Shown here one piece after another: positions 9,885 to 40,916 of a stretch of DNA of 64,000 nucleotides. Location: NCBI GenBank assembly GCA_949285735.1, contig CASEAQ010000003.1, forward strand, positions 1 to 64,000. The letters are read 5' to 3'. The notes under the pieces are model-generated. The model did not search any database. It was given only the letters and a program-made list of their open reading frames with translations, and was not told the DNA's origin. Positions within the stretch are counted from its first letter, which is position 1; every line of letters starts with the position of its first letter. The stretch is from an uncultured Bacteroidales bacterium (GTDB lineage Bacteria > Bacteroidota > Bacteroidia > Bacteroidales > Muribaculaceae). The position numbers and the translations under genes are program-made.

Positions 9885-9949
9885 GTGTAGTTGAGCCGTG
9901 CTGTCGTGCAGGGGCTACTGCGATATGGCTCAGGAGCCGTTTTAAAAGG

Positions 9950-11632
9950 CTACCTGACGAGTATTTTTATCGGGGTGTGCAATTGGTCGGTCGTGACGAG
10001 ATAAGCCCCGTATGGCAGCGAAATCATCGTTCCCGGCTCGATGGTGTCGATGGAGCGCACCAATTGTCCGCTTATGTCATAGATTCGGCATCCCGTGTGC
10101 GGCTCTTCGCAGGTGAAGCGCACGAGTTGCCCGTCATAGATGGTCACGGCAAGCGGGCGGTCGTCGGTCGCCACTTGCTGCACTCCCGATGTGTTTACGG
10201 TTATCGTGTTGGACGGTTCCGACAGATACCCCAGGCGGCTCGATTGCACGTAGTAGGAGTGTATTTCGCCGGGCTGCATGTCATTGAAGTCAAAGTAATT
10301 TTCTTCCGACTGTTCTTGAGTTGTGGTTGCGTTCCCTCCGCTGTAAACCGTCCGTGTAATCACGTAGTAGTCGATTGCCTCGGTTGCTGCTTCCCATTCT
10401 GCGCGGTAGGACGTGGCAGTCACGTTGGTTGCCGGGCGGGCAGTCAGGCGCGAAAGGGTGGGTACGGGGAGGCTCTCGCCCGAAAGCCCCATGCCGACGC
10501 TGCCAGTCAATCCGCCATCGGAAAGCACCAGTCGAGCCGAGTGGCTGCCTGTCGCGGTCGGCGAGTAGGTCACCCTCAATGGGAATCCGTCGGCAGTGTT
10601 TGCGCTCGATGCAGGAATTGAATTTACGGCTATGCTGAAGTAGTTTGCGTTGGTGCCATACACCGTTACGCTTATGTTGCCCCTTAATCCCGTACCTTTC
10701 ACGTTCAGGTCGATTCCTTGTGACGAGCCGACGGCAGCCTCGCCGAAGTTGAGTTCGCTGTCCTGTACCGGGCTTATCAGTATCGGGTCGCCGTCATAAT
10801 GGGCGGCTGTGTATTGTTCGCCTTGGCGGTCGCCCCAGATGTATTCGACGAGTTCGGGGTCATCAACAAACGGGTTGCGGTTGCCCTGTATGGCATACAC
10901 GGCGTTGTTGCGGTCGATTTCCTTTTGGCTCACCGGGTCGATGCGCGACCAGTCGAGCAGCATGTCTATCGCCCAGTCGCGCATCGACAGGTAGCTGTTG
11001 TTGGTGAACATGTAGGTGTAACGCCATTCATACGACTGGTAGCAAGTGACCATGTAGAAATAAATGCGAGCAAAGTCGCCCTTGTATTCGTCGTCGGGTT
11101 CAAACACACGCGACGAGCCGCCGCCTTGCCCCGACACGGGAATGCCCACGGTGCTTGTGCCGTTGCTGAATGTTATGCTGCTCGGGTCAACTTCGCCGAG
11201 GGGGTAGTTCGACTTTGCCATGTTGGCATCGCCGTCAGATGGCAATATGTGCATGATGTCGGTTCCTGCCGGGAAGTCGTAGATGGCATCGTTGCCCGAG
11301 CCCCACCAGCTTTTGGGCACCGAGTGTTCGCGGTTCAAGCCGCGGGTGCCGCCATAGTAGTAATACGTTTGGTTAGCCCAGTTGTCGGAATACATATCCC
11401 ACACGAGCAATCGCCCGTTTACCCTTTCGGGATAGGCGTCGGTTTCGGGGTAGTAATCCCACAGGCTGTTGTAGCTGAGCCGTGTGTGGGAGTTGATTAT
11501 CGAGCACAATTGGTCTTTCAGCGACTCGTCGCGCAAGCCGTCGAGCGAGCTGTAATATCCATCAGGGATTTCTGCCGACAGCGAGAGTGCCGTTGCCGAC
11601 AGCAACAGTGTGGTAAGGTAAAAATACTTCAT
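9950..11632 (-). CDS. secreted endonuclease I family protein with T9SS-type tail
   Basis: A 560-residue exported protein: signal peptide (1-20), endonuclease I domain (about 30-285), an Ig/choice-of-anchor-like segment (about 290-385), a fibronectin III-like segment (about 390-475), and a C-terminal domain of about 75 residues. The nuclease motif NREHSVPKSWW (100-110) carries the expected beta-beta-alpha-metal His103, and the later DGDANMAKSNYPLGEV supplies metal-binding Asn. The end (CRIYDISGQLVRS ... LPYGAYLV ... IKILV) resembles the type A sorting domain read by the type IX secretion system. Likely an extracellular nuclease for DNA/RNA scavenging. Sorting route is inference. Confidence 0.88.
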   Translation of the reverse strand: MKYFYLTTLLLSATALSLSAEIPDGYYSSLDGLRDESLKDQLCSIINSHTRLSYNSLWDYYPETDAYPERVNGRLLVWDMYSDNWANQTYYYYGGTRGLNREHSVPKSWWGSGNDAIYDFPAGTDIMHILPSDGDANMAKSNYPLGEVDPSSITFSNGTSTVGIPVSGQGGGSSRVFEPDDEYKGDFARIYFYMVTCYQSYEWRYTYMFTNNSYLSMRDWAIDMLLDWSRIDPVSQKEIDRNNAVYAIQGNRNPFVDDPELVEYIWGDRQGEQYTAAHYDGDPILISPVQDSELNFGEAAVGSSQGIDLNVKGTGLRGNISVTVYGTNANYFSIAVNSIPASSANTADGFPLRVTYSPTATGSHSARLVLSDGGLTGSVGMGLSGESLPVPTLSRLTARPATNVTATSYRAEWEAATEAIDYYVITRTVYSGGNATTTQEQSEENYFDFNDMQPGEIHSYYVQSSRLGYLSEPSNTITVNTSGVQQVATDDRPLAVTIYDGQLVRFTCEEPHTGCRIYDISGQLVRSIDTIEPGTMISLPYGAYLVTTDQLHTPIKILVR

Positions 11633-11653
11633 GCGGAATGATTTTGCAACTTA

Positions 11654-11661
11654 CAAAGTTA
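11654..11661 (-). promoter_or_regulatory. -7 box of the endonuclease gene
   Basis: The minus strand reads TAACTTTG, matching TAnnTTTG, about 22 bases before the ATG. The -33 element is not at the ideal distance. Confidence 0.5.
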
Positions 11662-11887
11662 GCGAAAAATGTCGAGCAGCAATGTTACAAAACAGTGAAA
11701 AAAACTTGCTTATTTTTGATTGGTATCTCCGTGTTGCAACAATTGATATAAGGGAAGGTTTTTTGCCAGCAAGGAACGCCAACTGTCGAGTTGGTGGAAT
11801 TTTTGCTGTTTGCCAGGTATAATGTGGGTTAAAATGGGGAGTGGTAGAAAAAGAATTGCTAATTTTACCGCCCCAAAATTATGCTTG

Positions 11888-13381
11888 ATGAACAGGAACT
11901 ATCTCCATGTGGTGCTTTGGCTTGTCCTGCTGGTGATTATAGCCTTGCTTGCTCTGAACAGGCTGCCACAACTCTCGTTGATGGGAGAACCGTTGAAAGA
12001 GGTTGACATACTTGCCGACTTGAAGTCTCCGAAAAACAATTCCGACCCCGAAGATGCGGCGATTGCCGACATCATAAACCGTCGTGCCGACTCGATTGCC
12101 GCCGCCCGAAAGGCTGTGGTGGCGGCGAAGCAGGACACTGCCGGCAGCAGTGCCGGGCAGACGGCAAAACCCAAGAAGCCGCGCCAGCCGTCAGCCGTCA
12201 GCGATTCCTTGTTGGCGACGGGGGGCAGCAGCGCGTATATCGAAGATTTCAGCTTGGGCGACGGGTGTGGAATGGAACCATATTACGACGCTATCGACCG
12301 CATGGCGAGCGAGGGCGGCGTGGTGAGGATTGCCGTGCTTGGCGATTCCTATATCGAGGGCGACATTCTCACTGCCGACTTGCGCATGATGCTGCAAAAG
12401 CAGTATGGCGGTTGCGGAGTGGGCTACGTGCCTGTCACCTCCGAGACCTACGGCTTCCGCCGCAGCGTGCGCCACAGCTTCTCGGGGTGGCGTTCCTACA
12501 AGGTCACCGACGTGGGCAAGGGCTTCGACAAAAGCCGCGAGACCATTTCGGGCGAGTATGCAATCCCCGACAGCATGGCGACGGTCGAACTGCGCGGGCA
12601 GCGCAAGTATTACAGCAGCCTCGACAGTTGCGACGAGTCGTCGATATACTTCCGCGCCTTTGCCCCGTGCACGGTCACGGCATCGGTCAACGGCGGGCAA
12701 TACAAGCAGCAGTTTGAGGTTTCGCCGCAACAGGGCTTGCAGGTGCTGACTGTCGATGCCGATGGCGGCAAGGTGGGGCGCGTGCGCTGGTCGGTTGACC
12801 GCAGCGGCGACGATTACACTTTCTATGGCGCGACGATGGATTGCCGCCGAGGCATAGTGCTCGATTGTTACTCGATGCGCAGCACGAGCGGACCCAACTT
12901 GCTGGGAGTGCCCGAGGGGAACATTGCCGACTACGACCGCTTGCGCCATTACGACCTCATCGTGCTGATGTATGGGTTGAATGCCATCACCTCGGAGATT
13001 ACCAATTATGCCGGCTACAAGGAGCGAATGTGCGAAGTAATCGAGCGCATCAAGAGCAATTGCCCCGGCAGCGGCATACTGGTGGTGAGCGTGGGCGACC
13101 GTTGCGAACGCCGCGACGGCGAGATGCGCACGATGCGCGGCGTGCTTGCCATGGTGAAATACCAGCGGCTGATTGCGGCAGAGAGCGGCGTGGCGTTTTG
13201 GAGCATGTTTGACGCTATGGGAGGCGAAGGTAGCATCGTGAAGATGGTCGAGGGCACTCCTCGCGAAGCCAATGGCGACTACACCCACATCAACTTCCTC
13301 GGTGGCCGCAGGCTTGCCGGATATTTCTATGATGCCTTGGTGAAGGGGAAAGAAGAATATGACAACAACGAAGCACAATAA
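11888..13381 (+). CDS. SGNH/GDSL hydrolase-type membrane protein, O-acetylation partner
   Basis: A 497-residue protein with an N-terminal membrane anchor (about 7-24), a low-complexity Ala/Lys/Gln/Pro linker (about 65-110) and an SGNH hydrolase domain in the periplasm. Block I is GDSYIEGD (about 151-158) with the nucleophile Ser; a block III-like YGLNAI is near 360; block V DYTHINF (about 463-469) has the Asp-x-x-His pair. Only eight bases separate it from an MBOAT acyltransferase, matching PatA/PatB and AlgI/AlgJ-X pairs that O-acetylate peptidoglycan or exopolysaccharide. The target glycan is unknown. The ATG at 11888 gives a normal anchor; upstream in-frame starts would add 26 unlikely residues. 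Confidence 0.82.
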   Translation: MNRNYLHVVLWLVLLVIIALLALNRLPQLSLMGEPLKEVDILADLKSPKNNSDPEDAAIADIINRRADSIAAARKAVVAAKQDTAGSSAGQTAKPKKPRQPSAVSDSLLATGGSSAYIEDFSLGDGCGMEPYYDAIDRMASEGGVVRIAVLGDSYIEGDILTADLRMMLQKQYGGCGVGYVPVTSETYGFRRSVRHSFSGWRSYKVTDVGKGFDKSRETISGEYAIPDSMATVELRGQRKYYSSLDSCDESSIYFRAFAPCTVTASVNGGQYKQQFEVSPQQGLQVLTVDADGGKVGRVRWSVDRSGDDYTFYGATMDCRRGIVLDCYSMRSTSGPNLLGVPEGNIADYDRLRHYDLIVLMYGLNAITSEITNYAGYKERMCEVIERIKSNCPGSGILVVSVGDRCERRDGEMRTMRGVLAMVKYQRLIAAESGVAFWSMFDAMGGEGSIVKMVEGTPREANGDYTHINFLGGRRLAGYFYDALVKGKEEYDNNEAQ

Positions 13382-27687: not shown

Positions 27688-27730
27688 GCGATTAATTCGG
27701 TGTCGCGGCGACGAGTTAATCGCTTTTTTT
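27688..27730 (+). terminator. cdd terminator
   Basis: GCGATTAA (27688-27695) pairs with TTAATCGC (27716-27723), then seven T residues. The 3' arm contains the stop codon of the convergent gene on the minus strand. Confidence 0.85.
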
Positions 27731-28807
27731 GTGCGTTATCTTGTCGAGTAGTGGCATCAGGTCATCGGCTGGATTGGCAGAGTGGGTTATGTTGTCGATG
27801 CCGAGGCTGTGCAACATGGGCATATCCTCGATGCTTTGTGCCATGCAGTAAAGTGAGGTGCCGCTCCTTTTGATAGCTGTGATTAGTGTCAAGAACGCAG
27901 GGCTGGAAACGACTGTGGGGGAGAGGTCGGGGCAAATCATTACTGCTGCCGATGCTTGTTTCAGAGTCTCGCAGAGGCATTTGCTGCCAGGAACTATTTC
28001 GGTTGCTGGTTTTAGCCTGGCGTTGAAAAATGAAACGAAAGCCCCTGCCAAGCCGCCCCCGGCACCGCAGGCGGTTGCATACGACACATCACGACCGTTG
28101 TGCTTGAAGTATATCGAAGCCATGTTGCGCAGCCCGTTGTCGAGAATGTCGGCAGTTACTTCGTTTGACCCGAGGTTGCGAGCATTGCGTCTTGCTGGAC
28201 CTGTGGAGGCATAGAATGCTGCATCGTCGTTGCAGGCGATGGTGAAGCGGCATCGTTTCAGCGCCAGCGACTTCTTGCTGTAGGTAACGCTGGTGACGCG
28301 TAGCATCTCCGAGCCGCGATATAGCCGCAGTTCGGTACCGTCATGAGTCAGCATCTTGTAACCCAATGCGTTGAGTGCGCCCAGCCCGGCATCGATTGTA
28401 GCCAAGTGATTGATGCCGATAACGAAGTTGCGGCAATTGTGCGACAGTGCGTCGGCAATTGCCTCGCCTATCCCGTGTGTGAAAGTCGTTGCAGGGTTGC
28501 TGCCGCTGTCGGCAGGGTCATAGCCACATATTGCGTCGGCTTCGATATATGCCGATTTTCCGTCGTGCGAAATCAGGTAGCTTGTTTCCTTAGGGGCAAG
28601 GTGGCGGTCGCGCACCGTCACTGAGACGCGCCGGCAGCCACCGTGGCTTGCCTCGATGGCATCGAGGAATCCTTTGCCTCCGTCGGATATTGGCAATACC
28701 GCGACGGGGGCAATCGGTGCCTTGTGTGTGGCGGCATATTCTTCTGCCACATTTTTTATGCTTGAGGCACCGGCGATGCTGGTATGGTATAATATTGCGA
28801 TGCTCAT
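27716..28807 (-). CDS. divergent glycerate kinase family protein
   Basis: A 363-residue protein of the GckA/GlxK glycerate kinase fold. Recognisable pieces are ISDGGKGFLDAI (about 40-51, for the usual ADGGEGT), HGIGEAIADAL (about 109-119), DAGLGALNALGYKM (about 138-151, for NDGGAGMLQALG) and ACGAGGGLAGAF (about 245-256, for GAGAAGGLG). Several motifs that in the family bind substrate are changed or absent: the N-terminal DSFKGS is replaced by YHTSIAGAS, the GSATND loop reads NHLATID, and the C-terminal TGEGRLDxQT block is not recognisable. It may use another substrate or be non-catalytic. No operon partner on this strand. Confidence 0.72.
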   Translation of the reverse strand: MSIAILYHTSIAGASSIKNVAEEYAATHKAPIAPVAVLPISDGGKGFLDAIEASHGGCRRVSVTVRDRHLAPKETSYLISHDGKSAYIEADAICGYDPADSGSNPATTFTHGIGEAIADALSHNCRNFVIGINHLATIDAGLGALNALGYKMLTHDGTELRLYRGSEMLRVTSVTYSKKSLALKRCRFTIACNDDAAFYASTGPARRNARNLGSNEVTADILDNGLRNMASIYFKHNGRDVSYATACGAGGGLAGAFVSFFNARLKPATEIVPGSKCLCETLKQASAAVMICPDLSPTVVSSPAFLTLITAIKRSGTSLYCMAQSIEDMPMLHSLGIDNITHSANPADDLMPLLDKITHKKSD

Positions 28808-28896: not shown

Positions 28897-28929
28897 TTTG
28901 GTACAAAAAGCGTCTTGACATTATATTTG
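28897..28929 (+). promoter_or_regulatory. promoter of the exopolysaccharide-type operon
   Basis: TTTG (28897-28900) and TATATTTG (28922-28929), spacing 21 bases. Transcription would begin near 28936, leaving a leader of about 109 bases before the HEAT-protein ATG. Confidence 0.7.
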
Positions 28930-29044: not shown

Positions 29045-30256
29045 ATGGAAGTTGACTACGGTACATACGTGTTTAAGGTGATTTCCTACTATTTTTGGTA
29101 CTTGTGTGATTTATATGTAGGTTTTCCCTTAGTAATACAGATTTGTGTCCTCATCATTATGCTCAGCATTTGTGTGGGGATATACTTGTTGTGTCAAACG
29201 ATATACTTGTATATAATCAAGCACAAGGAGCGCAAGATTATGGACAGGTTTGTTGAGTTGTATCGCGACCCCATGATAGAAATAGGCAACGACGATGTGG
29301 TACACGAGCCCGACGAAATTGCCGAAGTGCTCGAGTATGACAGACGCAAACCGATGTCGTTGAGGGAGAAAAGGCTGCTCGTGCAAATGATAGTTGACAC
29401 CAAAACCGAGATAACCGACACCCGTACAGATGCCGGTGAAACCATCAACCGCACCAATTTTCACAATATAATAGTGGCATTCGGCCTCCAAAGTTTTTTT
29501 GAGAGCGAATTGCAATTTTCACGTACCAAATACAAGGTGAGGGCTCTGACGTGGGTGCGTTTCCTCGAAGAGAATGTGCCCGGGGCTGTGATTACGCCGC
29601 TGCTTTATGCGCGCAACAACGACTTGCGTAAGGCGGCACAAGCCACCTTCATGTGGAACAGCGTGGTAGAGCCGTTTCGTTTTTTCGACAATGGCGACTA
29701 CGACAAGTATTATCGCGATTGGGATAAAATCGACATTCACTCGATACTGGTCAACCGCCGCAAATGGGGGCTTCCGATTCCAAATGTTGCCCACTGGGTG
29801 AAGGACTCGAAGAACGAGAAGTTGAAACCGTTGTTTGCAAGCGAGATACGCTATTTGAACAAGACCAATGAGTGTGACGAATTGTTTGACACATTCATAC
29901 GCACGAGCAACATCGAGCTGAAGTGCGAGATTGCCTGTACGCTCGGAAAGATGCATCACGTGGCAGACGAGGAGAATCTGGTGGATGCCTACAAGGTGCA
30001 GGTGGAACAGGTGAAGATGGCTATCATAAATGCCATAGTTGACATGGGCACCGGGCGGCAAGTACATTTCCTTGAACGGTGTTACGACGAGGCTGGTGAC
30101 TACTCGGTGAAGTTTGCCGCTGCGCTGGCTCTGTACAATTATGGCGATGAGGGAATGCAGGTGTTTAACCGCAAGCAAGCCAATGCCGGAACCAAGTATG
30201 AATGGATATTCAACCACATTAACGACCCTATTATCAATAGGAGGTTTGCCGTATGA
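29045..30256 (+). CDS. membrane-anchored HEAT-repeat protein, exopolysaccharide operon
   Basis: A 403-residue protein with one or two N-terminal membrane segments (about 10-56) and a cytoplasmic helical-repeat domain (about 120-395). Repeats with HEAT-like pattern are seen at YKVRALTWVRFLEENV, NIELKCEIACTLGKMHHV and YSVKFAAALALYNYGD. It overlaps the following glycosyltransferase by four bases (ATGA), so the two are translationally coupled. I do not know a published function. In the inferred machine it occupies the place of an inner-membrane accessory subunit such as PgaD or a PilZ co-polymerase, but it has no PilZ motif. Confidence 0.75.
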   Translation: MEVDYGTYVFKVISYYFWYLCDLYVGFPLVIQICVLIIMLSICVGIYLLCQTIYLYIIKHKERKIMDRFVELYRDPMIEIGNDDVVHEPDEIAEVLEYDRRKPMSLREKRLLVQMIVDTKTEITDTRTDAGETINRTNFHNIIVAFGLQSFFESELQFSRTKYKVRALTWVRFLEENVPGAVITPLLYARNNDLRKAAQATFMWNSVVEPFRFFDNGDYDKYYRDWDKIDIHSILVNRRKWGLPIPNVAHWVKDSKNEKLKPLFASEIRYLNKTNECDELFDTFIRTSNIELKCEIACTLGKMHHVADEENLVDAYKVQVEQVKMAIINAIVDMGTGRQVHFLERCYDEAGDYSVKFAAALALYNYGDEGMQVFNRKQANAGTKYEWIFNHINDPIINRRFAV

Positions 30257-31737
30257 AAGATATGCTGTTTGACATTTATGGCTATTGTGTGTTTTTCTAC
30301 AGCTTGCTGTTGATAATCAACTACACTGTGCTGATGTTCCTCAGCTTCAATTCGCAGCGCAAGGAAAAGACATTCCTGAGTATCGCCTACATAAAGAAGA
30401 TGCTCAGCAACTCGCCCTACACGCCCGGGGTGTCGATTATCGCCCCGGCATATAACGAGGAGAGCAACATTATCGACAATGTGGTGTCGATGCTGTCGGT
30501 CGATTACCCGAAGTTTGAGGTGGTGATTGTCAATGACGGTAGTACCGACTCGACGCTCGAAAAGCTGATAGAGTACTTCAGCCTTGTCGAAGTGCCATTT
30601 GCCTACCGTGAATATGTGAAATGCGCCCCGGTGAAACGGGTGTTCAAGTCAACCAAGCCCATCTTCGAGCAATTGATTGTGGTTGACAAGGTTAATGGTG
30701 GCACCAAAGCCGATGCGTCGAATGCCGGCATCAACGTCGCCCGTTATCCATATTTCATCGATACCGACGTGGACTGTATTATCGACAAGAACGCGCTTTA
30801 CCGCCTTGTGTGGGCAGTATTGAAGGAGAAAACGCCCGTCATAGCCGTCAGTTCGACAATGCTCATGGTGAACGGATGCAAGGTCGAGAATGGTAGAATG
30901 GTTGAGTCGCGTGTCTCCAAGCGGCCTGTTCCGCTTTTCCAGCAAGTCGAGTACCTGCGTTCCTACCTTGTGGGCAAAATGGGGTGGGCTGCTATCAATG
31001 CCGTCAACAACGTGTCGGGTGGATTCGGTTTTTTCCGCCGCGACGTGGTAGTGGCTGTCGGCGGCTACGATTCTTCGAGCTTTGCCGAGGATATGGACTT
31101 GATAATGCGCATGATTTCATATATGTGTGAACTCAACCAGCCCTACCGCATTCCGCATGTGGCAGAAACCACTTGTTGGACCGAAGGTCCGCCAAACTTG
31201 TGGGCGTTGAGCAAGCAGCGCACACGTTGGGCGCGAGGATTGATGCAGTGTATGGTCATGCACCGCAAGTTGCTGTTCAATCTACGCTACAAGCGTTTGG
31301 GGCTCATCACCTATCCTTACATGTTTATGTTTGAATTTATAGCTCCTGTCATCGAGTTCATTGGGTATATTTCGCTTATTTGGTTTGTGCTGATTGGAGC
31401 GGTCAACTGGACTACGTTCTGGGTGATATTGCTCATGTTGTACACTTTCAACGAGTTTATGTTGCTGGTCATTTGCTTCTTCAGCTATTACGTTGAAGAC
31501 CCGAGCAACCGCAACAGTAAGTGGGATTATCTGTGGCTTTTCGTGGCATCGTTTTTCGAGCCGGTACTTTACCACCCTATAATTGTGTTTTTTGCAGTAA
31601 AGGGTTACTTCAGCTTCCTCACCAAGAGGTCGTTTAAGTGGGAAGACATTAAGCGCGAAGGTTTCGGCAAGGAACGCCGAAAGAAGAAAGGCGAGGATGC
31701 GGATGAGGACAATGAGCCTGTTCCGCAAACGTTGTGA
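30253..31737 (+). CDS. processive family 2 glycosyltransferase (PgaC/BcsA-like)
   Basis: A 494-residue inner-membrane polysaccharide synthase. An N-terminal membrane segment (about 8-32) precedes the GT-A domain with the D,D,D,QxxRW set: DGSTD (95-99), DTDVD (170-174), EDMD (about 278-282) and KQRTRWARG (about 320-328). Three to four membrane helices follow (about 350-470), forming the channel through which the growing chain passes. The last 30 residues are Lys/Glu-rich. Layout equals that of PNAG, hyaluronan and cellulose synthases. Sugar donor is not readable from the sequence. Next gene starts 25 bases later. Confidence 0.9.
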   Translation: MKDMLFDIYGYCVFFYSLLLIINYTVLMFLSFNSQRKEKTFLSIAYIKKMLSNSPYTPGVSIIAPAYNEESNIIDNVVSMLSVDYPKFEVVIVNDGSTDSTLEKLIEYFSLVEVPFAYREYVKCAPVKRVFKSTKPIFEQLIVVDKVNGGTKADASNAGINVARYPYFIDTDVDCIIDKNALYRLVWAVLKEKTPVIAVSSTMLMVNGCKVENGRMVESRVSKRPVPLFQQVEYLRSYLVGKMGWAAINAVNNVSGGFGFFRRDVVVAVGGYDSSSFAEDMDLIMRMISYMCELNQPYRIPHVAETTCWTEGPPNLWALSKQRTRWARGLMQCMVMHRKLLFNLRYKRLGLITYPYMFMFEFIAPVIEFIGYISLIWFVLIGAVNWTTFWVILLMLYTFNEFMLLVICFFSYYVEDPSNRNSKWDYLWLFVASFFEPVLYHPIIVFFAVKGYFSFLTKRSFKWEDIKREGFGKERRKKKGEDADEDNEPVPQTL

Positions 31738-31762
31738 GAATAAAGACATTAAATATACGCGC

Positions 31763-34621
31763 ATGAAGCGACAAAAATTTGCATATACTTGGTTATTGGC
31801 GATTGTGTGTTCGCTGTTTTTCTTGTCGGCTACCGACGAGGACAGCGTGCACCTGCCCGACTATTATGTCGATGCGGCAAAGCAATGCTTTGCGCGGCAC
31901 CAGAACGAAGCGGCAAAGGAGATTCTCGACAAGGGTGTAAAGGTGCACCCTGTCGATCCCAACATTCGCTGGTTGCTCGGGCGTTACTACTATGAAAAGC
32001 AAGACCTTGACATGGCTCGCTACAACCTTATAAAGGCTGTGGAGAGCGACTATAACCATGTTGATGCAAAACAGTTGCTTGTGAAAGTGGAAGATGAATC
32101 GGGGCATTATTCGAGCGCAATATGCTATGTCAACGAGCTACTTGAAGTGAATCCCTACTGGCGCGGGTTGTGGCGCAGAAAAATCGACCTGTACCGCAAA
32201 ATGGGTAATGATGTCGAAGCCGACCGCTTGCTTGAGCGCATCAGCCAGATTTATCCCGAGGATAGCGGATTGAAGAAGGATTTGGCTTACTCTTATGAAA
32301 TGTCTTACTTAAAGTATCGCAAAAGTGGCAATATTGCCGAGGCTACGAAATATCTTGAAAAGTTGCTCGCTACCGACCCCGACAAGGCTGACACTTACTT
32401 GGCTCTGTGCAATATGTACCTGCAACAAGGTTATATCGACAGGGCTTATGAAGTGGCTTCGCGCGGAGCCGAGCGTTTCCCGTCAAACATGGAATTGATG
32501 CGCAAGAAGGTGGGCATCTTGTGCGAACAGGGGCGTTATACCGAGGCTCTGACATACGTCAAGAATCGCATGAGCAGGAACAATTCCCCGGCGTTGCGCA
32601 ATTACTACAATTCGCTGTTGGTAGAGTCGGCACAGGCTGCCCGCGATGGCGACCCTTATGTGATGTATGGCAAGATTTATGAGGCGACGCACAGCCGCGA
32701 GGCTCTCGACTACCTGCTCAACACATCGCTCTCGCGCGGATATTACGATGATGCCCGCTACTACTTGTCGGAGGCGAAAAAGCGCGACGGACGTGACAAT
32801 GTCAAGTTGCTATATAAGGAGTATGTGCTCGAACGCCGTTTTGGCAACGACCGTGAAGCCAGCGCATTGCTCAACCGCATATACATGGCTGCACCCAACG
32901 ACTATGACGTGAACTATGAAATGGTGAAAGCGCAATATAACGAGGCAGAACGGCTCATGGCAAACAACGACTTCGCAAGTGCCATCCCGTGTGTGCAGTT
33001 TGTGGTAAAGAACGAGAAGGAAGACAGTTCGCTCGTGGTATCGGCTCGTGAACGCCTCGTTACTTGCTACGCCTCGCTCAAACGCTACAACGAAGCTCTT
33101 GCCGAGGTTGAGGCGTTGAAGCAGTATCGTCCCGACTACATGCTTTATGTGGAGCGGAAGGGCGACATACTGAACCGCATGGGGCACACGACTGCTGCGC
33201 TCGACTTGTATTATGAGGCTTATAACGACACGACTTCGGTCAACCGCGATATTTATGCGATGGCTTATGAGGAAACGGCTGTTCCGTATATCAAGAAGTT
33301 GATGCAGGACGGTGCCACCAGCCGGGCTTATTATGAAGCGCAACGGTTGCTCGAAGTCAATCCCGACAGCGACCTTGGGCTGAGATATGCGATTAATGCG
33401 GCTGCCTTGCTCGGGAAATCCGAAGAATTTGAGCAATATGCGCAGACAGGTGCCGAAAAATACCCGAACGACTTGTTCTACAAGGTGAAAGTGGCTCAGT
33501 CGCTCGATGAAAAGGGGCAATATGACGAATCGCTCGAACTCTTGCGCGGGCAACTTGAGGACTATCCCGACAATCCCGACGTGACGGGGGCATACGCGTC
33601 GAGCAGCGAGATGTATGCGCTCGACTTGATACGCGACAACAAGCCCGAGGCGGCTGTTGCCGTGGTTGACTCGGCTCTGACTTTCGACAGCGACAACAAT
33701 AGCTTGCTCTATACCAAGGGGCTTGCCTACGAGAAGATGCACCGCCTCGACTCGGCTTATATCTATCAGTTGCACTACGAGCCGACGATTGCCGAGGTTG
33801 GCGACTATAATCAGCACATGCGTGGGTTGCTCAACCGCAGCTACAAGAATCAAGTGGGGTTATATTATCTGCATTCGCGCCCAGCCAGCGAGGACGTGAT
33901 TACGTCGATTGCTACGGTAGAATACACGCGCACGGGCGCAAAGAACGATTTTTCGGGCAGGGTCAACTACAAGAGCCTTGACGGCAACATGAACCCCGAC
34001 GACGTGGGGGAGGATCTCGATGACGGCGGCACGGGAATACAGTTGCAGGCGGCATGGACGCATCGCTTCAACGCGTTGTGGAGCTTGAACGCCAATCTTG
34101 CGTGGGCAAACGATTATTTCCCCAAGTGGGTTGCCAACGTGGGTGTGACCAAGACGTTCAAAAAGGAGTGGGAACTGAATTTCAACTTGGGTTACCGCCG
34201 GTTGGTTGACGACAACAATATGTTCTCGTTGTCGCCCACGGTGTCGAAGATGTGGTCGCCAGTGCTTGCAAGCCTCAAGCTCGATTTGCTCACGACCAAT
34301 TCTGAATTTTACTACAACGTCACGGGGCAAGCCAAGTTTTTCCTGAACCAAGACCGACGCACCAATATAACTGCAATGGCAGGCATAGGCAATTATCCCG
34401 AGATAACGTTGCTCGACAACGGTATAGTGACGGGCTATCAGCATCATAAAACGTCGTCGATGGTGGGGTTGGGCGGAACTGTCATGCTCACCCGCAACTT
34501 CTCGGTGGGCGTGCTTGGCACCTGGTACAATTATTTCAACCCATACAGCGAGGTTGTGGAAACTGCTTCAAGGCACAGGAATATATATAATGTCGAATTG
34601 CAGCTTTATGTCAATTTCTAA
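31763..34621 (+). CDS. TPR protein with C-terminal YaiO-like outer-membrane barrel
   Basis: A 952-residue exported protein: signal peptide (about 1-24), a long superhelix of tetratricopeptide repeats (about 30-690; for example VHPVDPNIRWLLGRYYYEK and TDPDKADTYLALCNMYLQQG), and a beta-barrel of about 255 residues (695-952) that ends in VELQLYVNF, a proper outer-membrane assembly signal with terminal Phe. This is the architecture of PgaA, AlgK-AlgE and BcsC: TPRs in the periplasm guide the glycan to an outer-membrane pore. The ATG at 31763 gives a good signal peptide; an upstream in-frame start would overlap the synthase gene. Confidence 0.87.
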   Translation: MKRQKFAYTWLLAIVCSLFFLSATDEDSVHLPDYYVDAAKQCFARHQNEAAKEILDKGVKVHPVDPNIRWLLGRYYYEKQDLDMARYNLIKAVESDYNHVDAKQLLVKVEDESGHYSSAICYVNELLEVNPYWRGLWRRKIDLYRKMGNDVEADRLLERISQIYPEDSGLKKDLAYSYEMSYLKYRKSGNIAEATKYLEKLLATDPDKADTYLALCNMYLQQGYIDRAYEVASRGAERFPSNMELMRKKVGILCEQGRYTEALTYVKNRMSRNNSPALRNYYNSLLVESAQAARDGDPYVMYGKIYEATHSREALDYLLNTSLSRGYYDDARYYLSEAKKRDGRDNVKLLYKEYVLERRFGNDREASALLNRIYMAAPNDYDVNYEMVKAQYNEAERLMANNDFASAIPCVQFVVKNEKEDSSLVVSARERLVTCYASLKRYNEALAEVEALKQYRPDYMLYVERKGDILNRMGHTTAALDLYYEAYNDTTSVNRDIYAMAYEETAVPYIKKLMQDGATSRAYYEAQRLLEVNPDSDLGLRYAINAAALLGKSEEFEQYAQTGAEKYPNDLFYKVKVAQSLDEKGQYDESLELLRGQLEDYPDNPDVTGAYASSSEMYALDLIRDNKPEAAVAVVDSALTFDSDNNSLLYTKGLAYEKMHRLDSAYIYQLHYEPTIAEVGDYNQHMRGLLNRSYKNQVGLYYLHSRPASEDVITSIATVEYTRTGAKNDFSGRVNYKSLDGNMNPDDVGEDLDDGGTGIQLQAAWTHRFNALWSLNANLAWANDYFPKWVANVGVTKTFKKEWELNFNLGYRRLVDDNNMFSLSPTVSKMWSPVLASLKLDLLTTNSEFYYNVTGQAKFFLNQDRRTNITAMAGIGNYPEITLLDNGIVTGYQHHKTSSMVGLGGTVMLTRNFSVGVLGTWYNYFNPYSEVVETASRHRNIYNVELQLYVNF

Positions 34622-36779
34622 GAGGGCGTGTGCGGCAATTGTGTTGTTGCCATGCCTGCTGGGCGGTTGCGCCAACGCCTCAAGCACGACTGCCGATGGC
34701 GATATTGCTGCTCGGCAGCAGTGCAAAAGTGCCAATGTATATGAAATATTGGTGGCAAAAAAAGCCGATGAAATCGATGTCAAATGGAGCGATTATCTCG
34801 CTAAGTGCATGAGGCAGCGGTCGATTGACGGCAACCGAGTGGTCGAAACAAGCGATGAAAGCGCGCATTGCGCCGATGCCATGAGGATTACGGTTGACGT
34901 TGATGCCAAATACCCCGATGAATACGCAATAATCGAAAAAAACGGCAATGTGCAGTTGATTGCCCGCAGCGAGCGCACGATGCAGTGGCTCGTGTGCCAG
35001 TTGTTGAAGAACATTTCGATTGCCGACAAGTCGATTCTTGCTGACGACCTGCCTCCAGCCATTATAGAAGTCAAGGCTGGTGCGAAGAGATCGGGAAATT
35101 TTGCCTTTGAGTATCGTGAAGCATATTTGCCCGAAAACATCGAGCCTGAGCAATCGGCGATTCATGGCGAGAACAACGTTGGCAGCGATTGGGGGCTGTG
35201 GGGGCATAATCTTTACCGCATTATAGGGGAAGACCCCGATACAGCTGTGTATGCCTTGGTCGGCGGCAATCGTTATGGCGGGCAATATTGTTTTTCATCG
35301 AGTGTGTTGCATGAGGCGGTGAGCAGCTATATTGCCGATAACTTCAGCAAGCCGTCGAGGTTTGTCGTAATGCCCAACGACGACGATGCCGTGTGCCAAT
35401 GCAGTTTGTGCACCAAGGTTGGCAACAGCGATAGGAATGCTACACCTGCTGTGGCGAAGTTGGTGAGGGAGCTTGCCGAGGCTTTTCCCGAACACACTTT
35501 CTTCATGGGGGCGTATGGCAGCACATTTGCCGCTCCTGCCGACAAGATGCCTGGCAACGTGGGCGCATTGGTGAGTGCGATGGGGTGGCAATTGTCGCCC
35601 GTGGCAGGAGGCAGGCGGCGCGCCGATTTCGATGCCGTGGTGCGCAACTGGCAAGGCGTGTGCAGCAAGATATATGTGTGGGATTACATCAACAATTTCG
35701 ACGATTATTTCACTCCGTTCCCGGTGTTGCGCATCATGCAGCAGCGGTTGAGGCATTACCGCTCGATTGGCGTGGGTGGAGTTTTTCTTAATGGCAGCGG
35801 CGAGGAGTATTCTTCGTTCTCGGGCTTGCACAATTTTGTGCTGTCGGCGTTGATGATTGACCCCGATACCGATGTCGAGACGCTTGTGCACAGCTATTTC
35901 ATGCAATATTTCCCAACGGCTGGCAAGATGCTTGCCGAGCAGTATTTGCTGTGGGAAGATGCCGTGGCAGCGAGCAAGTCGCGGCTCAATATATATGCCC
36001 CCATAAACCAAGCCATGGAGTATTTGGGCGGGGCAGAGTTTGGCGTTTTCTACCGCAATCTGTGTGCTGCTACTGACTATGCCGACGGCGAGGAGCGCAG
36101 CCATTTGCTCGATTTGCAGACGCGGCTGGCATACACCATGCTCGAAGTGGCTCGTGTGCTTGGCTGTCGCGACGGTGGCTGCATTGCACCGTCGGGCAAG
36201 GTGAGTGCCGATGTCAGGTCGTGGCTTGACGTTTTTGTCGCGGCTGCCCAAGATTGCATTTCGGAGTCGGGATTGAAAGTCGCCGACTATGTGAAGTGCT
36301 GGAATATGTCGATACTTGGGCATTCGACAACCAATCTCATTGCAGGAAAGGAGCTGAAGGCCTTGACGAGGCTCGATGCCGGCTATGGCGACTTGTCGGT
36401 GTTGACCGATTGCGTCAATGGGTTGCCTTGCGGCTACCACTACGGGTGGCTCATCTCCTCGCTTGACAAGCGGTTGGAGATTGAAGTGCCGTTAGACCCA
36501 CGGGCGCAGCGGCTCGATGTGTCGTTCCTGAAGTTACCACGTCACCGCATCTCATTACCAGTGAAGATTGAGGTGCTGAAAGATGGCAAGCACATCGCTG
36601 CGCCACTGACGGCTGACGATGCTGCCGAAGCCGACGTGTTGAGGGAAGAGAGCCGACGGCTGGTTTACAGTTTCGACATAGGCAATGTTGCCGCCGACGG
36701 TGGCAGCGTGGTGCTGCGCATAACGAGGCACAAGGGGAGTAACAGCCACTTGGCGATAGACGAGATAAGGTTGAAGTAA
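34608..36779 (+). CDS. DUF4838 lipoprotein, glycoside hydrolase-like
   Basis: A 723-residue lipoprotein with lipobox LLGGC (Cys21). DUF4838 is recognised from the central region with the CQCSLC cysteine motif (about 263-268) and the block WQLSPVAGGRRRADFDAVVR plus IYVWDYINNFDDYFTPFP (about 325-370). The family's fold is thought to resemble GH67 alpha-glucuronidase and related TIM-barrel hydrolases. A beta-sandwich-like domain follows at the C-terminus (about 610-723). It overlaps the barrel gene by 14 bases. In the operon it could trim or modify the exported polymer as PgaB does, but catalytic residues are not identifiable by eye. An alternative ATG lies 18 bases upstream. Confidence 0.8.
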   Translation: MSISKRACAAIVLLPCLLGGCANASSTTADGDIAARQQCKSANVYEILVAKKADEIDVKWSDYLAKCMRQRSIDGNRVVETSDESAHCADAMRITVDVDAKYPDEYAIIEKNGNVQLIARSERTMQWLVCQLLKNISIADKSILADDLPPAIIEVKAGAKRSGNFAFEYREAYLPENIEPEQSAIHGENNVGSDWGLWGHNLYRIIGEDPDTAVYALVGGNRYGGQYCFSSSVLHEAVSSYIADNFSKPSRFVVMPNDDDAVCQCSLCTKVGNSDRNATPAVAKLVRELAEAFPEHTFFMGAYGSTFAAPADKMPGNVGALVSAMGWQLSPVAGGRRRADFDAVVRNWQGVCSKIYVWDYINNFDDYFTPFPVLRIMQQRLRHYRSIGVGGVFLNGSGEEYSSFSGLHNFVLSALMIDPDTDVETLVHSYFMQYFPTAGKMLAEQYLLWEDAVAASKSRLNIYAPINQAMEYLGGAEFGVFYRNLCAATDYADGEERSHLLDLQTRLAYTMLEVARVLGCRDGGCIAPSGKVSADVRSWLDVFVAAAQDCISESGLKVADYVKCWNMSILGHSTTNLIAGKELKALTRLDAGYGDLSVLTDCVNGLPCGYHYGWLISSLDKRLEIEVPLDPRAQRLDVSFLKLPRHRISLPVKIEVLKDGKHIAAPLTADDAAEADVLREESRRLVYSFDIGNVAADGGSVVLRITRHKGSNSHLAIDEIRLK

Positions 36780-36801
36780 ACAGAAAAAATATCGGAAATA
36801 T

Positions 36802-37326
36802 ATGATGAAACGCGTGTCGAATATAATCGTTTTGGTGTGCCTGGCTGCTGCAATGCTTGGTGCGATGCAGTCGTGCAAGAAAAAGGTGAACATGACAGCT
36901 ATCGAGATTGAAGACCAGGATCGCCATTATTATCCCATCTTGCAAGGCGAGGAGTTCGAATTGAACTACGGTATAACCAACGTTGGTGATGAACCACTAA
37001 TAATCAAGGAGATACAAACGTCGTGCGGCTGCATGATTGTCAACGACAAATTGCCGCTCATGGTGATGCCTCGCAAGAAGGGGTTTATACACATCAAGTA
37101 TAACAGCACCAAGAATGTGGGGCTTGTGAAACATTACATATATTGCTATGGCAACATAGCCGAGACTGGGCGCGCCGAGTTGCGCTTCGACGTGCATGTG
37201 GTGCCCGATGCCGATTATACGCGCGACTATGAGGAACTCTTCCGCGAGCAACGCAATCTCGACGGAAGTGTGGGCGATGCCGTCGATGGCGGTTTGCAGC
37301 GAGGATATTATGTAGATAATCCATAA
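36802..37326 (+). CDS. DUF1573 lipoprotein
   Basis: A 174-residue lipoprotein (lipobox AMQSC, Cys25) with one DUF1573 Ig-like beta-sandwich (about 40-140): NYGITNVGDEPLIIKEIQTS, then SCGC (about 73-76) and the KGFIHIKYNSTKNVG strand pair. The family is related to ASH/MSP-like domains and is abundant in Bacteroidetes envelopes; specific functions are unknown. It starts 22 bases after the DUF4838 gene and so is probably the fifth member of the polysaccharide operon. The last 35 residues are hydrophilic and may be disordered. Confidence 0.85.
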   Translation: MMKRVSNIIVLVCLAAAMLGAMQSCKKKVNMTAIEIEDQDRHYYPILQGEEFELNYGITNVGDEPLIIKEIQTSCGCMIVNDKLPLMVMPRKKGFIHIKYNSTKNVGLVKHYIYCYGNIAETGRAELRFDVHVVPDADYTRDYEELFREQRNLDGSVGDAVDGGLQRGYYVDNP

Positions 37327-37360: not shown

Positions 37361-38536
37361 ATGGTTATTTACCGCTTGGTTGCGCTGGTGGTCGCCTTGG
37401 TGGCGTTTATCCCAGCCATGCAGCCGCAAAATATCAAGGTCGGGGCTGAACGTGTAGCCCAATACGTGCCTTTGCTCAAGGGCAAGCGTGTTGCATTGCT
37501 TAGTAACCACACGGGCATGGTGGGCGAGCGGCACACGCTCGATGTGATGCTCGAAAATGGCATTGAAGTCACCACGATTTTCTCGCCCGAGCATGGATTC
37601 CGTGGCAACGCTGATGCCGGTGAGAAGGTGTCGAGCGGCGTTGATGCAGCTACGGGCATTCCCATCGCCTCGCTCTATGAAGGGAAGACGCGTATGCCCT
37701 CGGCAAAGACTATGGGGCGTTTCGACGTGATTGTTACCGACCTGCAAGATGTGGGATTGCGATATTACACTTATTATATCACAATGCTCGACTTGATGAA
37801 CGCAGCGGTTGCCTACGGCAAGGAATTTGTCGTTTTTGACCGTCCGAATCCAAACGGAATGTATGTCGATGGGCCGATACTCGACATGAAGTATAAGTCG
37901 GGCGTGGGGCGGCTGCCAATTCCTGTCGTGCATGGCATGACTCTTGGCGAACTTGCGCTGATGGCTGATGGCGAAGGGTGGCTGAAAGGGGGCAAGCGGC
38001 TTGGCGACCGCCTCTCGGTGGTGCCTTGCGAGGGCTATACTCACCAGAGTCGATACCGCCTGCCTGTGGCTCCGTCGCCCAATTTGAAGTCGATGATTGC
38101 CATTTACCTGTATCCTTCCACTTGCTACTTCGAGGGCACAGTGGTGAGCCTCGGGCGTGGCACCAAGCACCCGTTTGAGATATATGGGCACCCCGACATG
38201 GAGGGCTACACCTTCTCGTTCACGCCGCAGAGCATCGACGGGGCTAAGAATCCTCCGTTGTTGGGCAAAAAGTGCTTCGGGCGCGACCTCTCGGGGCTTG
38301 ACGAGGAAGAAGTGATAGCAGCAGGAATCAACCTCGAATATGTGATAGATACTTATCGCCGCTTGGGAAAGGGCGACCGCTTCTTCACGTCGTTTTTCGA
38401 GCTGTTGATTGGCGATGGCAACGTGCGTCGCATGATAGAGGAAGGGAAGAGCGCAGCAGAGATAAAAGCCACGTGGAGCGACGATGTGGAGGCATTCAAG
38501 CAACGCCGCCGCCCATATTTGTTGTATGAAGAATAA
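37361..38536 (+). CDS. namZ: exo-beta-N-acetylmuramidase (DUF1343, NamZ family)
   Basis: A 391-residue exported protein with a signal peptide (about 1-21). DUF1343 signatures in order: LLSNHTGMV (about 45-53), FSPEHGFRG (about 74-82), DLQDVGLRYYTYYI (about 127-140), FDRPNPNGMYVDGP (about 162-175), TNLKSM-like PNLKSMIAIYLYPSTC. Bacillus YbbC and the Tannerella forsythia enzyme of this family (GH171) release MurNAc from the non-reducing end of peptidoglycan fragments. Here it likely acts in the periplasm. The symporter gene follows after 33 bases, which suggests uptake of the freed sugar. Confidence 0.9.
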   Translation: MVIYRLVALVVALVAFIPAMQPQNIKVGAERVAQYVPLLKGKRVALLSNHTGMVGERHTLDVMLENGIEVTTIFSPEHGFRGNADAGEKVSSGVDAATGIPIASLYEGKTRMPSAKTMGRFDVIVTDLQDVGLRYYTYYITMLDLMNAAVAYGKEFVVFDRPNPNGMYVDGPILDMKYKSGVGRLPIPVVHGMTLGELALMADGEGWLKGGKRLGDRLSVVPCEGYTHQSRYRLPVAPSPNLKSMIAIYLYPSTCYFEGTVVSLGRGTKHPFEIYGHPDMEGYTFSFTPQSIDGAKNPPLLGKKCFGRDLSGLDEEEVIAAGINLEYVIDTYRRLGKGDRFFTSFFELLIGDGNVRRMIEEGKSAAEIKATWSDDVEAFKQRRRPYLLYEE

Positions 38537-38569
38537 TACTATCCCTAACACATACAGGTCTGAGCATTT

Positions 38570-40042
38570 ATGAGTCCGATTATAGTTCTTGCCACGATAG
38601 TTGGCTATTTTGTGCTGTTGTTCATTGTCTCGGCAATCGCCGGGCGTGGCAGCAGCAATGCGAGTTTTTTCACCGGCAGCAGGCAAGCCCCGTGGCTGGT
38701 GGTAGCTTTTGCCACTACCGGGGCGGCAATCTCGGGCGTGACGTTTATCTCCGTTCCCGGCATGGTGGTTGCAAAGGGATATAGCTATTTGCAGATGGCT
38801 CTCGGCTTCGTCATTGGTTATGTAGCGATAGCATTTGTGCTTGTGCCGCTGTTTTACAAGCGCAATTTGGTGTCGATATATGGCTATCTCGAACAACGGT
38901 TTGGCTTGATGACCTATCGCAGCGGTGCGTGGTTCTTCTTCGTGTCGAAGATATTGGGTGCGTCGGTTCGCTTCTTCGTGGTGTGCGTGGTGTTGCAGAG
39001 CCTCGCATTTGGTCCGCTCGGAGTGCCGTTTGTGCTTAATGTAGTCATCACCATCGCGCTTATATGGCTCTACACCATGCAAGGCGGGGTGAAGACAGTC
39101 ATTTGGACCGATACGCTCAAGTCGTTTTGCCTCATTGCGTCGGTGGTGTTGTCGATTGTTTTCATCGCTCGTGGGTTGGGGCTCGATTTCGGCGGCATGG
39201 TGTCGGCAGTTGTCGGCGACAGCTCTTCACGGGTGTTTTTCTTCGACGACCCCAAGTCGGGAGAATATTTCTGGAAGCAATTTATGGCTGGTATTTTCAT
39301 GGTTATTGCCACTACGGGGCTCGACCAAGACATGATGCAGCGCAACCTTGCTTGCCGCAATTCGCGCGAGTCGCAGAAGAATATGATTGTGAGCAGCATC
39401 GCCCAGTTTTTCATTATTGCCCTTTTCCTGATTCTCGGCACGCTGCTCGTGATGTATGTGTGGGCCACCCCAGGAATGGAGATGCCCGAAAAGACCGATG
39501 AACTCTTCGGGCTGGTGGCTTCGCACGACTCGATGCCGGTCATTGTTGGCATTGTGTTTATCCTTGGGCTTGTGTCGGCGGCTTATTCGGCAGCAGGGTC
39601 GGCACTCACGTCGCTCACCACGTCGTTTACGGTCGATATATTGGGTGCCGGCAATCTCGACGAACGCCGCCTCACGCTCACCCGCAAGTGGGTGCATGTG
39701 GCGATGTCGGTCGTTATGGGGCTGGTGATAATCGTGTTCTACTTCATCAGCGACAGCGATGCCATAAGTGCCGTTTACACGCTTGCCAGCTACACCTACG
39801 GGCCCATTCTCGGCTTGTTTGTGTTTGGGCTTTTTGTGCCATTCAAGGTGCGCGACCGCTATGTGCCTGTGGTGTGCATTGCCGCTCCGGTGGTTTGCTA
39901 TTTCGTGCAGGGGTGGCTGCTTGAGCGGTTTGGCTACACGATGAGTTTTGAACTGTTGCTGCTCAATGCGGCGGTTACATTTGTTGGATTGTTGTTGCTT
40001 GCAAAAGGAGGCAAGGAAGATGGCAAAGAACTTGATAAATAA
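38570..40042 (+). CDS. sodium:solute symporter family transporter
   Basis: A 490-residue LeuT-fold permease with about 13 membrane segments. Family features include GAAISGVTFISVPGM (about 45-59), GYLEQRFGLMTYRSGAW (about 105-121) and the sodium-site region GLVSAAYSAAGSALTSL (about 335-351). The start follows namZ by 33 bases and its end overlaps the WYL regulator by 23 bases. Given namZ upstream, MurNAc, an anhydro-sugar or a muropeptide are reasonable cargoes; Tannerella forsythia has a non-PTS MurNAc permease, but I cannot tell whether this is its orthologue. Confidence 0.9.
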   Translation: MSPIIVLATIVGYFVLLFIVSAIAGRGSSNASFFTGSRQAPWLVVAFATTGAAISGVTFISVPGMVVAKGYSYLQMALGFVIGYVAIAFVLVPLFYKRNLVSIYGYLEQRFGLMTYRSGAWFFFVSKILGASVRFFVVCVVLQSLAFGPLGVPFVLNVVITIALIWLYTMQGGVKTVIWTDTLKSFCLIASVVLSIVFIARGLGLDFGGMVSAVVGDSSSRVFFFDDPKSGEYFWKQFMAGIFMVIATTGLDQDMMQRNLACRNSRESQKNMIVSSIAQFFIIALFLILGTLLVMYVWATPGMEMPEKTDELFGLVASHDSMPVIVGIVFILGLVSAAYSAAGSALTSLTTSFTVDILGAGNLDERRLTLTRKWVHVAMSVVMGLVIIVFYFISDSDAISAVYTLASYTYGPILGLFVFGLFVPFKVRDRYVPVVCIAAPVVCYFVQGWLLERFGYTMSFELLLLNAAVTFVGLLLLAKGGKEDGKELDK

Positions 40043-40916
40043 GTACATCTGGATTATCGACACCATTCAGCGCTATGGACGCATTTCGCGCGACGAGCTT
40101 AACCGACTGTGGATGAAGTCGTCGGTGAGCGATGGCGAACCGCTTGCGCGCCGCACGTTCTACAACTACCGCCGTGGTATAGAGGAGACGTTCAACGTTA
40201 CTGTCGAGTGCGACCAGTCAACGTTTGAGTATTACATCGACACCTCGGGCGGCGAGCAGGACGACCGCCTGCGCAACTGGTTGCTCGATGCCGCCTCGAT
40301 GAGTGGAATGCTATCAGACTCGCACGATGTGTCCGACCGCATCGTGCTCGAAGATGTGCCCAGCGCGCGTGGCAACCTGCCCGTGGTGATACAGGCGATA
40401 AAGGACTCGTGCCGCATCAACTTTTCATACCGGGCATACAACCGCGTCAACACCAAGCACGACATCACGATTGAGCCGTATTTCGTGCGCATCTTCAAGC
40501 AACTTTGGTATGTGATAGGTTTCAATGTGAAGGACGGAATGATAAAGACCTACTCGCTCGACCGCATGAGCGACGTGGTGATTCGCAACGAGCATTTCGA
40601 GATGCCGCCGGGCTTCAGTGCCGCCGACTACTTCAAAGACTGTTTCGGCATAATGCAGAGCAAGGGCGAACCGAAGTATATCACACTCAAGACGACGAGC
40701 AACCAGGCAAAATATTTCCGCGCCTTGCCGCTTCACCACTCGCAGAGCGAGGAGGTGCACGACAGCTATTCGCTGTTCCACTACCGGCTGTTGATTACAT
40801 ACGACTTCGTACAGGAAATACTTTCCCACGGTTCGCAAGTCGAGGTGATTGCGCCCCCCGAGCTGAAAGCGATGGTAGTGAGCGAACTGCGCGCCGCCCT
40901 CGACAATTACAGCTGA
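40020..40916 (+). CDS. WYL domain transcriptional regulator
   Basis: A 298-residue protein with an N-terminal winged-helix-like region (about 1-75; ISRDELNRLWMKSS and RRTFYNYRRGIEE) and a WYL domain (about 125-215). The ligand-binding core is seen as RINFSYRAYN, IEPYFVRIFKQLWYVIGFN and YSLDRM; the WYL triad reads W-Y-V. A WCX-like C-terminal extension follows (about 225-298). WYL proteins sense nucleic acid or nucleotide ligands and regulate DNA damage, phage defence or metabolism. The ATG at 40020 (MAKNLINKYI) is preferred. Overlap with the symporter gene implies co-expression and perhaps local control of the salvage genes. Confidence 0.88.
   Translation: MAKNLINKYIWIIDTIQRYGRISRDELNRLWMKSSVSDGEPLARRTFYNYRRGIEETFNVTVECDQSTFEYYIDTSGGEQDDRLRNWLLDAASMSGMLSDSHDVSDRIVLEDVPSARGNLPVVIQAIKDSCRINFSYRAYNRVNTKHDITIEPYFVRIFKQLWYVIGFNVKDGMIKTYSLDRMSDVVIRNEHFEMPPGFSAADYFKDCFGIMQSKGEPKYITLKTTSNQAKYFRALPLHHSQSEEVHDSYSLFHYRLLITYDFVQEILSHGSQVEVIAPPELKAMVVSELRAALDNYS

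Follow-up and report, generated by a model that had tools for sequence, protein, structure and literature searches.

A conserved five-gene locus of Bacteroidota that apparently encodes an undescribed variant of synthase-dependent exopolysaccharide secretion

The best-known surface glycans of Bacteroides are Wzx/Wzy capsules, and among described glycan secretion systems Pga/Hms, Bcs and Nfr are closest to the locus analyzed here. This locus occupies positions 29045-37326 of a 64,000-nucleotide stretch (the window; positions 1 to 64,000 of contig CASEAQ010000003.1, assembly GCA_949285735.1) from an uncultured Bacteroidales bacterium of the Muribaculaceae, whose genome amounts to 2.6 Mb and is 80% complete (the locus is on contig C3). 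According to the open reading frame (ORF) list, to Pfam matches and, for the first gene, to profile and structural model, five plus-strand genes encode, in this order, a HEAT-repeat protein (HEAT), a family 2 glycosyltransferase (GT2), a tetratricopeptide repeat (TPR) protein with a YaiO barrel, and two lipoproteins, one with DUF4838 and one with DUF1573. We read the locus, with a probability of roughly 0.7, as a machinery of Bacteroidota that makes and exports an exopolysaccharide in a synthase-dependent manner and in which HEAT is the scaffold or regulator of the GT2. Its presumed workings resemble those of Pga, Nfr and Bcs, yet defining tests of each of these systems fail on it, and it is a real, conserved and apparently undescribed variant of this type of secretion.

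The Pga/Hms system (PgaABCD) shares with the locus a processive GT2, a TPR protein with an outer-membrane barrel and the arrangement as a small operon of adjacent genes. PgaB is a lipoprotein with a hydrolase part, in which the DUF4838 protein, a putative hydrolase, would resemble it, and is annotated in Escherichia coli as a deacetylase and glycoside hydrolase (GH). When four E. coli synthases were compared with the GT2 family model, PgaC was nearest with 85 bits, followed by YaiP (40 bits), BcsA (20 bits) and NfrB (7.6 bits), and the best NCBIfam match of the window GT2 was PgaC_IcaA (TIGR03937) with 106.7 bits at a cut-off of 422.3. This proximity would suit a diverged Pga-type system which makes the same polymer, poly-N-acetylglucosamine (PNAG), by the same steps, with HEAT in place of PgaD and DUF4838 in place of PgaB, and a hydrolase of the kind active on N-acetylglucosamine (GlcNAc) would be in keeping with PNAG. 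We consider such a system distinctly less probable, as the scores for PgaC_IcaA and for the PgaA model TIGR03939 on the exporter (27.7 bits; cut-off 366.65) fall below their cut-offs, the deacetylase domain PF01522 is absent from the five proteins (the three matches in the genome lie on other contigs) and E. coli PgaD reaches no more than 4.9 bits with any of the five family models. The operon thus differs from Pga in having neither a PgaD-like protein nor a deacetylase among its five genes, in its additional HEAT and DUF1573 proteins, and in the assignment of its exporter to YaiO and of its hydrolase to DUF4838.

Cellulose secretion by Bcs also employs a GT2 synthase and a TPR-barrel exporter, together with a periplasmic hydrolase; no BcsB-like or GH8 domain, however, was found by Pfam in the five window proteins, and the cellulose synthase model TIGR03030 gave 41.3 bits with the GT2, under its cut-off of 699.1. 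In the yaiO-yaiP-yaiS region of E. coli, a YaiO barrel is again accompanied by a GT2, YaiP, but YaiO has only 257 residues there, and YaiS (a putative deacetylase) and yaiX (an acyltransferase fragment) are found in place of HEAT, DUF4838 and DUF1573. NfrA-NfrB, the N4 glycan receptor of E. coli, combines a GT2 and a TPR outer-membrane barrel in glycan secretion, and NfrB has a C-terminal MshEN-like domain for cyclic di-GMP (c-di-GMP), as stated in extracts of PMC8669472. In contrast, a Pfam scan up to E 1 detected no domain on the 494-residue window GT2 beyond GT2 models.

The original prediction held that rare co-occurrence of these genes elsewhere would speak against a common system, and a gene-neighbourhood analysis of loci with the operon-type DUF4838 did not show such rarity. 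An alignment of eight DUF4838 proteins was searched against named genomes, the best 80 of the 217 relatives were kept, and the five families were scored in the kept loci by purpose-built profiles; query patterns and ranking favour the DUF4838 type that occurs in the operon. All five genes, alike in order and strand, were present in 69 of these 80 loci. Of the remaining 11 loci, eight are truncated because the contig ends (L061, L070, L077, L088, L099, L110, L118, L119), one lacks DUF1573 (L101) and two contain lone DUF4838 paralogs without the other four genes (L055, L056). The loci closest to the window come from metagenome-assembled genomes (MAGs) of Muribaculaceae, and carriers of all five genes include Bacteroides, Prevotella, Alistipes, Dysgonomonas, Muribaculaceae and Capnocytophaga as well as Flavobacterium columnare, Mesonia, Arenibacter, Sphingobacterium and Brumimicrobium. 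Pairwise distances over 62 loci were compared between the five families and correlate with Spearman coefficients of 0.54-0.80, the maximum in 200 shuffles per pair being 0.08-0.14, although shared descent alone could explain this correlation. No widespread family was found in the flanks of the 69 full loci, where the commonest cluster occurs in 13.

Within the genus, a close GT2 occurs in five of the eight other genomes, and the same five hold the five-gene set; in one genus locus (L038) two of the five genes are frame-broken. In three same-genus genomes (G198, G199, G202) neither the five genes nor the glycerate kinase gene that precedes them in the window were detected in the stretch examined, and the flanking genes are kept in order, namely those for a glucosaminidase, a cytidine-deaminase-like protein (named by eye), NamZ, a symporter and a WYL protein; in G202 a different ORF occupies the operon site. 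The five genes are a real unit, present or absent as one block within the genus. In a strict search, operon-type DUF4838 was found in 8 of 393 genomes sampled from the order and in 5 of 395 sampled from the phylum, with the window genome counted in both, and the window genome itself gives a single match each for HEAT, GT2 (E <= 1e-60) and DUF4838. In the GT2 tree, Bacteroides pyogenes groups with Proteiniphilum (support of 99 in the SH-like approximate likelihood ratio test, SH-aLRT) and apart from other Bacteroides, which is compatible with horizontal spread or with ancient copies.

Some loci at the margins of this survey deserve mention. The DUF4838 genes of L055 and L056, both at 9860-12085, are near the operon type, and the MAGs from which they come also carry a five-gene locus (L053, L054). 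A lipoprotein-like family represented by the ORF L085:915-2861 and clustered ORFs in 13 of the 69 loci lies near the operon on either side; the one member scanned had no Pfam match. Another cluster (L105:2246-4393 and ORFs in 11 of the 69 loci) encodes a DUF4842 protein, judged from one scanned member, upstream of HEAT, and this protein is possibly an optional part of the operon. The 7.8 kb contig of L099, on which the operon lies, is labelled Gastranaerophilales, probably by a binning error.

The GT2 has the motifs of a processive synthase. Residues D95, D172xD174, E279D280xD282 and Q322xxRW326 are conserved in 71 of 71 sequences of an alignment from which rows of less than 440 residues had been dropped, and the catalytic domain has hydrophobic segments before and after it, at 12-30, 366-384, 391-409 and 429-447. 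A PDB sequence search gave chondroitin and cellulose synthases as best matches. Matches to the N-terminal part include non-polymerising GT2s such as ceramide glucosyltransferase and sll0501, and the enzyme might be a lipid glycosyltransferase and the TPR barrel might serve another purpose, for example in envelope glycolipid assembly. This is improbable in our view, given that polymer synthases top the same search, that the QxxRW and ED motifs are invariant, that hydrophobic segments flank the catalytic domain and that the gene is tightly linked to those for the TPR-YaiO barrel and the lipoprotein with a GH fold. A placement of the GT2 by a tree relative to the E. coli synthases was set aside because the E. 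coli branches were very long.

The exporter was taken to start at the signal-peptide ATG at 31763, the ORF itself opening at 31697. Its YaiO barrel was recognised by PF19413 with 46.7 bits, above the cut-off of 23.9, and the TIGR04390 model (OMP_YaiO_dom) gave 26.4 bits, under its cut-off of 32.

For the first protein of the locus, the HEAT_2 model of Pfam gave 21.1 bits, under the cut-off of 27.7. A profile of 43 HEAT sequences compared with the PDB found alphaRep (HEAT-like) proteins, with AlphaRep-7 at 3.6e-22, and a structural model from the same number of sequences (predicted local distance difference test, pLDDT, 89.3; predicted TM-score, pTM, 0.79) displays a long helix at 29-82 and helix pairs up to 393, for which Foldseek retrieved alphaRep/HEAT proteins with a best E of 1.5e-4. 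By profile and by predicted fold, the window protein is a HEAT-type alpha-solenoid. The five plus-strand genes of the original prediction are all present as ORFs, four of them recognised by Pfam and HEAT by profile and model. Among 73 HEAT sequences, one transmembrane (TM) helix was predicted in 61, two in 8, three in 1 and none in 3, and the solenoid is read as cytoplasmic because a positive stretch follows the TM helix. We infer that HEAT may stand in for the c-di-GMP or PgaD-type subunit of other systems.

HEAT and GT2 also occur together in a second class of loci in the Bacteroidales, with the composition response regulator-YaiO-HEAT-GT2, for which we know of no name. A HEAT search in 198 genomes of the order yielded 12 genomes with a match, three of which (G000, G019, G059) hold the full five-gene set; in G182, HEAT-GT2-TPR is accompanied by a DUF4838 fragment where the contig ends, and the other eight are of this sister kind. 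With two genomes found via GT2 (G007 and G013, the contig of the latter beginning inside the GT2 gene so that HEAT is outside view), the sister set comprises ten loci with homologous HEAT and GT2. Their ten GT2s form one clade (support 99) in the GT2 tree, and 35 GT2s selected from the 71 five-gene ones all fall on the same side of a branch that has weak support (66). A TPR-YaiO protein, shorter than the window exporter and upstream of HEAT, was found near HEAT-GT2 in seven of the ten (L018, L019, L021, L022, L023, L024, L042), with another gene intervening next to YaiO in L019 and L024; no Pfam-recognised YaiO was found among the scanned neighbours in L017, and the stretches of L020 and L041 are truncated. 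Eight of the ten have CheY-like receivers nearby (L017, L018, L019, L021, L022, L023, L024, L042), and the sister class may be under receiver control. Relatives of DUF4838 or DUF1573 were detected in none of the ten stretches by single-sequence search (E <= 1e-3).

The sister loci rule out that the HEAT-GT2-YaiO combination is unique to the five-gene type; what is specific to the window type is the pair of DUF4838 and DUF1573 together with the large TPR exporter. The claimed novelty of the gene set needs one correction: the listings from searches of an open-access library, which does not cover subscription papers, contained no description of the five-gene set, and PMC10434189 deals with other matters than this locus, but the association of HEAT with GT2 and YaiO extends to the response-regulator class. 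As a tentative idea, which we hold to be possible rather than likely, the HEAT solenoid could clasp the GT2 and, in the sister class, dock a phosphorylated single-domain response regulator, whereas the window type would have replaced or lost this input and recruited the DUF4838 hydrolase and DUF1573, giving a synthase control of the Bacteroidota's own. If this were true, a class of synthases regulated without c-di-GMP would be at hand. In the sister loci, an Hpt-like domain was also seen in L017, L021 and L024, and the HEAT protein encoded by L019:7916-9952 has SPOR repeats at its N-terminus, by which it could extend to peptidoglycan.

A structural model of DUF4838, built from 44 of 81 sequences (pLDDT 90.2, pTM 0.90), is composed of an N-terminal domain, a GH-clan TIM barrel and a C-terminal beta-rich domain. 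The 50 Foldseek matches listed for it (E 1.3e-14 to 7.3e-8, TM-scores 0.28-0.49) include BT0459, which we take to be a GH20 enzyme, GH115, human O-GlcNAcase, BtGH84, GH138, GH20C, GH67 and Akkermansia blood-antigen enzymes. When 79 operon-type rows (the 81 less L055 and L056) were compared with 28 ordinary DUF4838 proteins, the lipid-site Cys27 was present in 77 of the 79, and H206, Q232, D264, Y309, N323, W354, W364-D365-Y366, P376 and P378 were invariant in both types. D264 and D365 are thus kept in 79/79 operon-type and 28/28 ordinary sequences, E559 in 79/79 and 26/28, and full conservation of D371-D372 and N401 is confined to the operon type. DUF4838 models well as a hydrolase fold similar to GH20, GH84 and GH115 with conserved acidic residues. 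That it is a dead enzyme, as N401 in the motif GVFxxG might imply, is unproven, since the ordinary type has Q in 25/28 and E in 3/28 at this position, and so no fixed acid, and D264, D365 and E559 are kept. Four cysteines (C234, C269, C271, C274, including a C-x-C-x-x-C cluster) are kept in nearly all sequences of both types and may form a metal site or disulfides.

In extracts of PMC9870897, a Polaribacter DUF4838 protein is labelled GH163 in a table, and the link between DUF4838 and GH163 rests on this one table; the same extracts report that in a Polaribacter co-culture the GT2 MED152_03905 was induced 8.8-fold and the DUF4838 protein MED152_03915, close by in locus tag, 18.5-fold, and list both as carbohydrate-active enzymes outside degradation loci. 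According to extracts of the review PMC10154615, a GH163 of B. thetaiotaomicron cleaves GlcNAc-beta1,2-Man and acts on host N-glycans. The latter activity, along with the fact that 31 of 149 genomes from the order hold DUF4838 proteins of either type, would agree with a locus for glycan breakdown, where host or dietary glycans would be the substrate of DUF4838 and the GT2 would be incidental. Such a locus is the least probable of the alternatives considered, because GT2, HEAT and the TPR barrel are linked as tightly as DUF4838, because the flanks hold no widespread family, the commonest cluster being in 13/69, and because operon-type proteins score 120-138 bits (3 genes) with PF16126 and the 28 ordinary ones 287-390 bits. 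With the secretion line that we favour, the operon-type DUF4838 subfamily gains a biosynthetic context, in contrast to the reading as a degradative enzyme in the one paper found.

In this secretion line, the GT2 would polymerise a nucleotide sugar in the cytosol, probably UDP-GlcNAc or another N-acetylhexosamine, and extrude the chain via its own membrane helices, while HEAT, held in the membrane next to the GT2 by its single TM helix, would be a cytosolic scaffold or regulatory synthase subunit. The TPR solenoid would lead the chain through the periplasm to its exit, the YaiO barrel, and the DUF4838 lipoprotein, as a putative hydrolase similar to GH20, GH84 and GH163, would trim or clear it, a role played elsewhere by PgaB, BcsZ or PelA. 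The DUF1573 lipoprotein, in whose family 69 of the 77 ORFs show a lipobox-like site, may be an accessory to periplasmic assembly. The polymer is probably a beta-linked N-acetylhexosamine, as suggested by the kinship to PgaC, the fold group of DUF4838 and the GH163 label (extracts of PMC9870897 and PMC10154615). Synthase-dependent secretion of a glycan, as originally predicted, is supported by a GT2 whose processive motifs are conserved, by the TPR-YaiO barrel and by the GH-clan fold.

Several points weigh against this interpretation. We know of no member with a known activity, and the Pfam scan found no deacetylase domain among the five proteins. The TPR family model is weak on BcsC, NfrA and PgaA (20, 13 and 7 bits) and does not match E. 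coli YaiO. The TM-scores of the 50 DUF4838 matches listed are low, PDB sequence searches with DUF4838 gave no meaningful chain match, and its target sugar is not fixed because the fold matches mix N-acetylhexosaminidases, glucuronidases and others. Also, the count of 69/80 applies to the operon-type subfamily and not to all DUF4838, because operon-type patterns were used and the best 80 of 217 were kept.

In gut and aquatic Bacteroidota, exopolysaccharides govern adhesion, resistance and recognition by phages and hosts. A conserved line with a single copy here and patchy spread offers genetics a compact five-gene target and an unexplored glycan, and the HEAT partner allows a direct test of synthase control other than by c-di-GMP.

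The features of the locus are compiled below. The junctions measure -4 (HEAT/GT2), +25 (GT2/TPR), -32 (TPR/DUF4838) and +22 (DUF4838/DUF1573) bases, so that overlaps or gaps of at most 25 bases, as first described, apply to three junctions but not to the TPR/DUF4838 overlap of 32 bases.

Features of the five-gene locus and its candidate promoter (window coordinates)
Feature	Position	Strand	Remarks
Candidate Bacteroidota-type promoter TTTG-N21-TATATTTG	28897..28929	+	ahead of operon; pattern match
HEAT-repeat inner-membrane protein, 403 aa (amino acids)	29045..30256	+	TM helix, then HEAT-like solenoid
Processive GT2 synthase, 494 aa	30253..31737	+	PF00535, 63.4 bits
TPR exporter, 952 aa	31763..34621	+	TPR models and PF19413; signal peptide (by eye); C-terminal outer-membrane barrel
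YaiO-type beta-barrel region of TPR exporter	33848..34618	+	Pfam 718-902, NCBIfam 777-945 (numbered from ORF opening at 31697)
DUF4838 lipoprotein, 729 aa	34590..36779	+	lipoprotein ATG at 34590; PF16126, 117.9 bits (cut-off 26.6)
DUF1573 lipoprotein, 174 aa	36802..37326	+	PF07610, 52.7 bits (cut-off 26.1)

The candidate promoter follows what we take to be the Bacteroidota promoter consensus. It was found at the matching place in all six genus loci examined (the window and L035-L039), and L040 has a similar form with a shorter spacer; the site was not found ahead of the operon in L014 and L016. Over the whole 64 kb, the pattern has six matches on both strands.

The glycerate kinase gene, which is absent together with the operon from the site in three same-genus genomes, is located at 27716-28807 on the opposite strand. 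Downstream, at 37361-40916, genes for a NamZ exo-muramidase, a sodium symporter and a WYL regulator are retained where the operon is absent and look like a separate unit.

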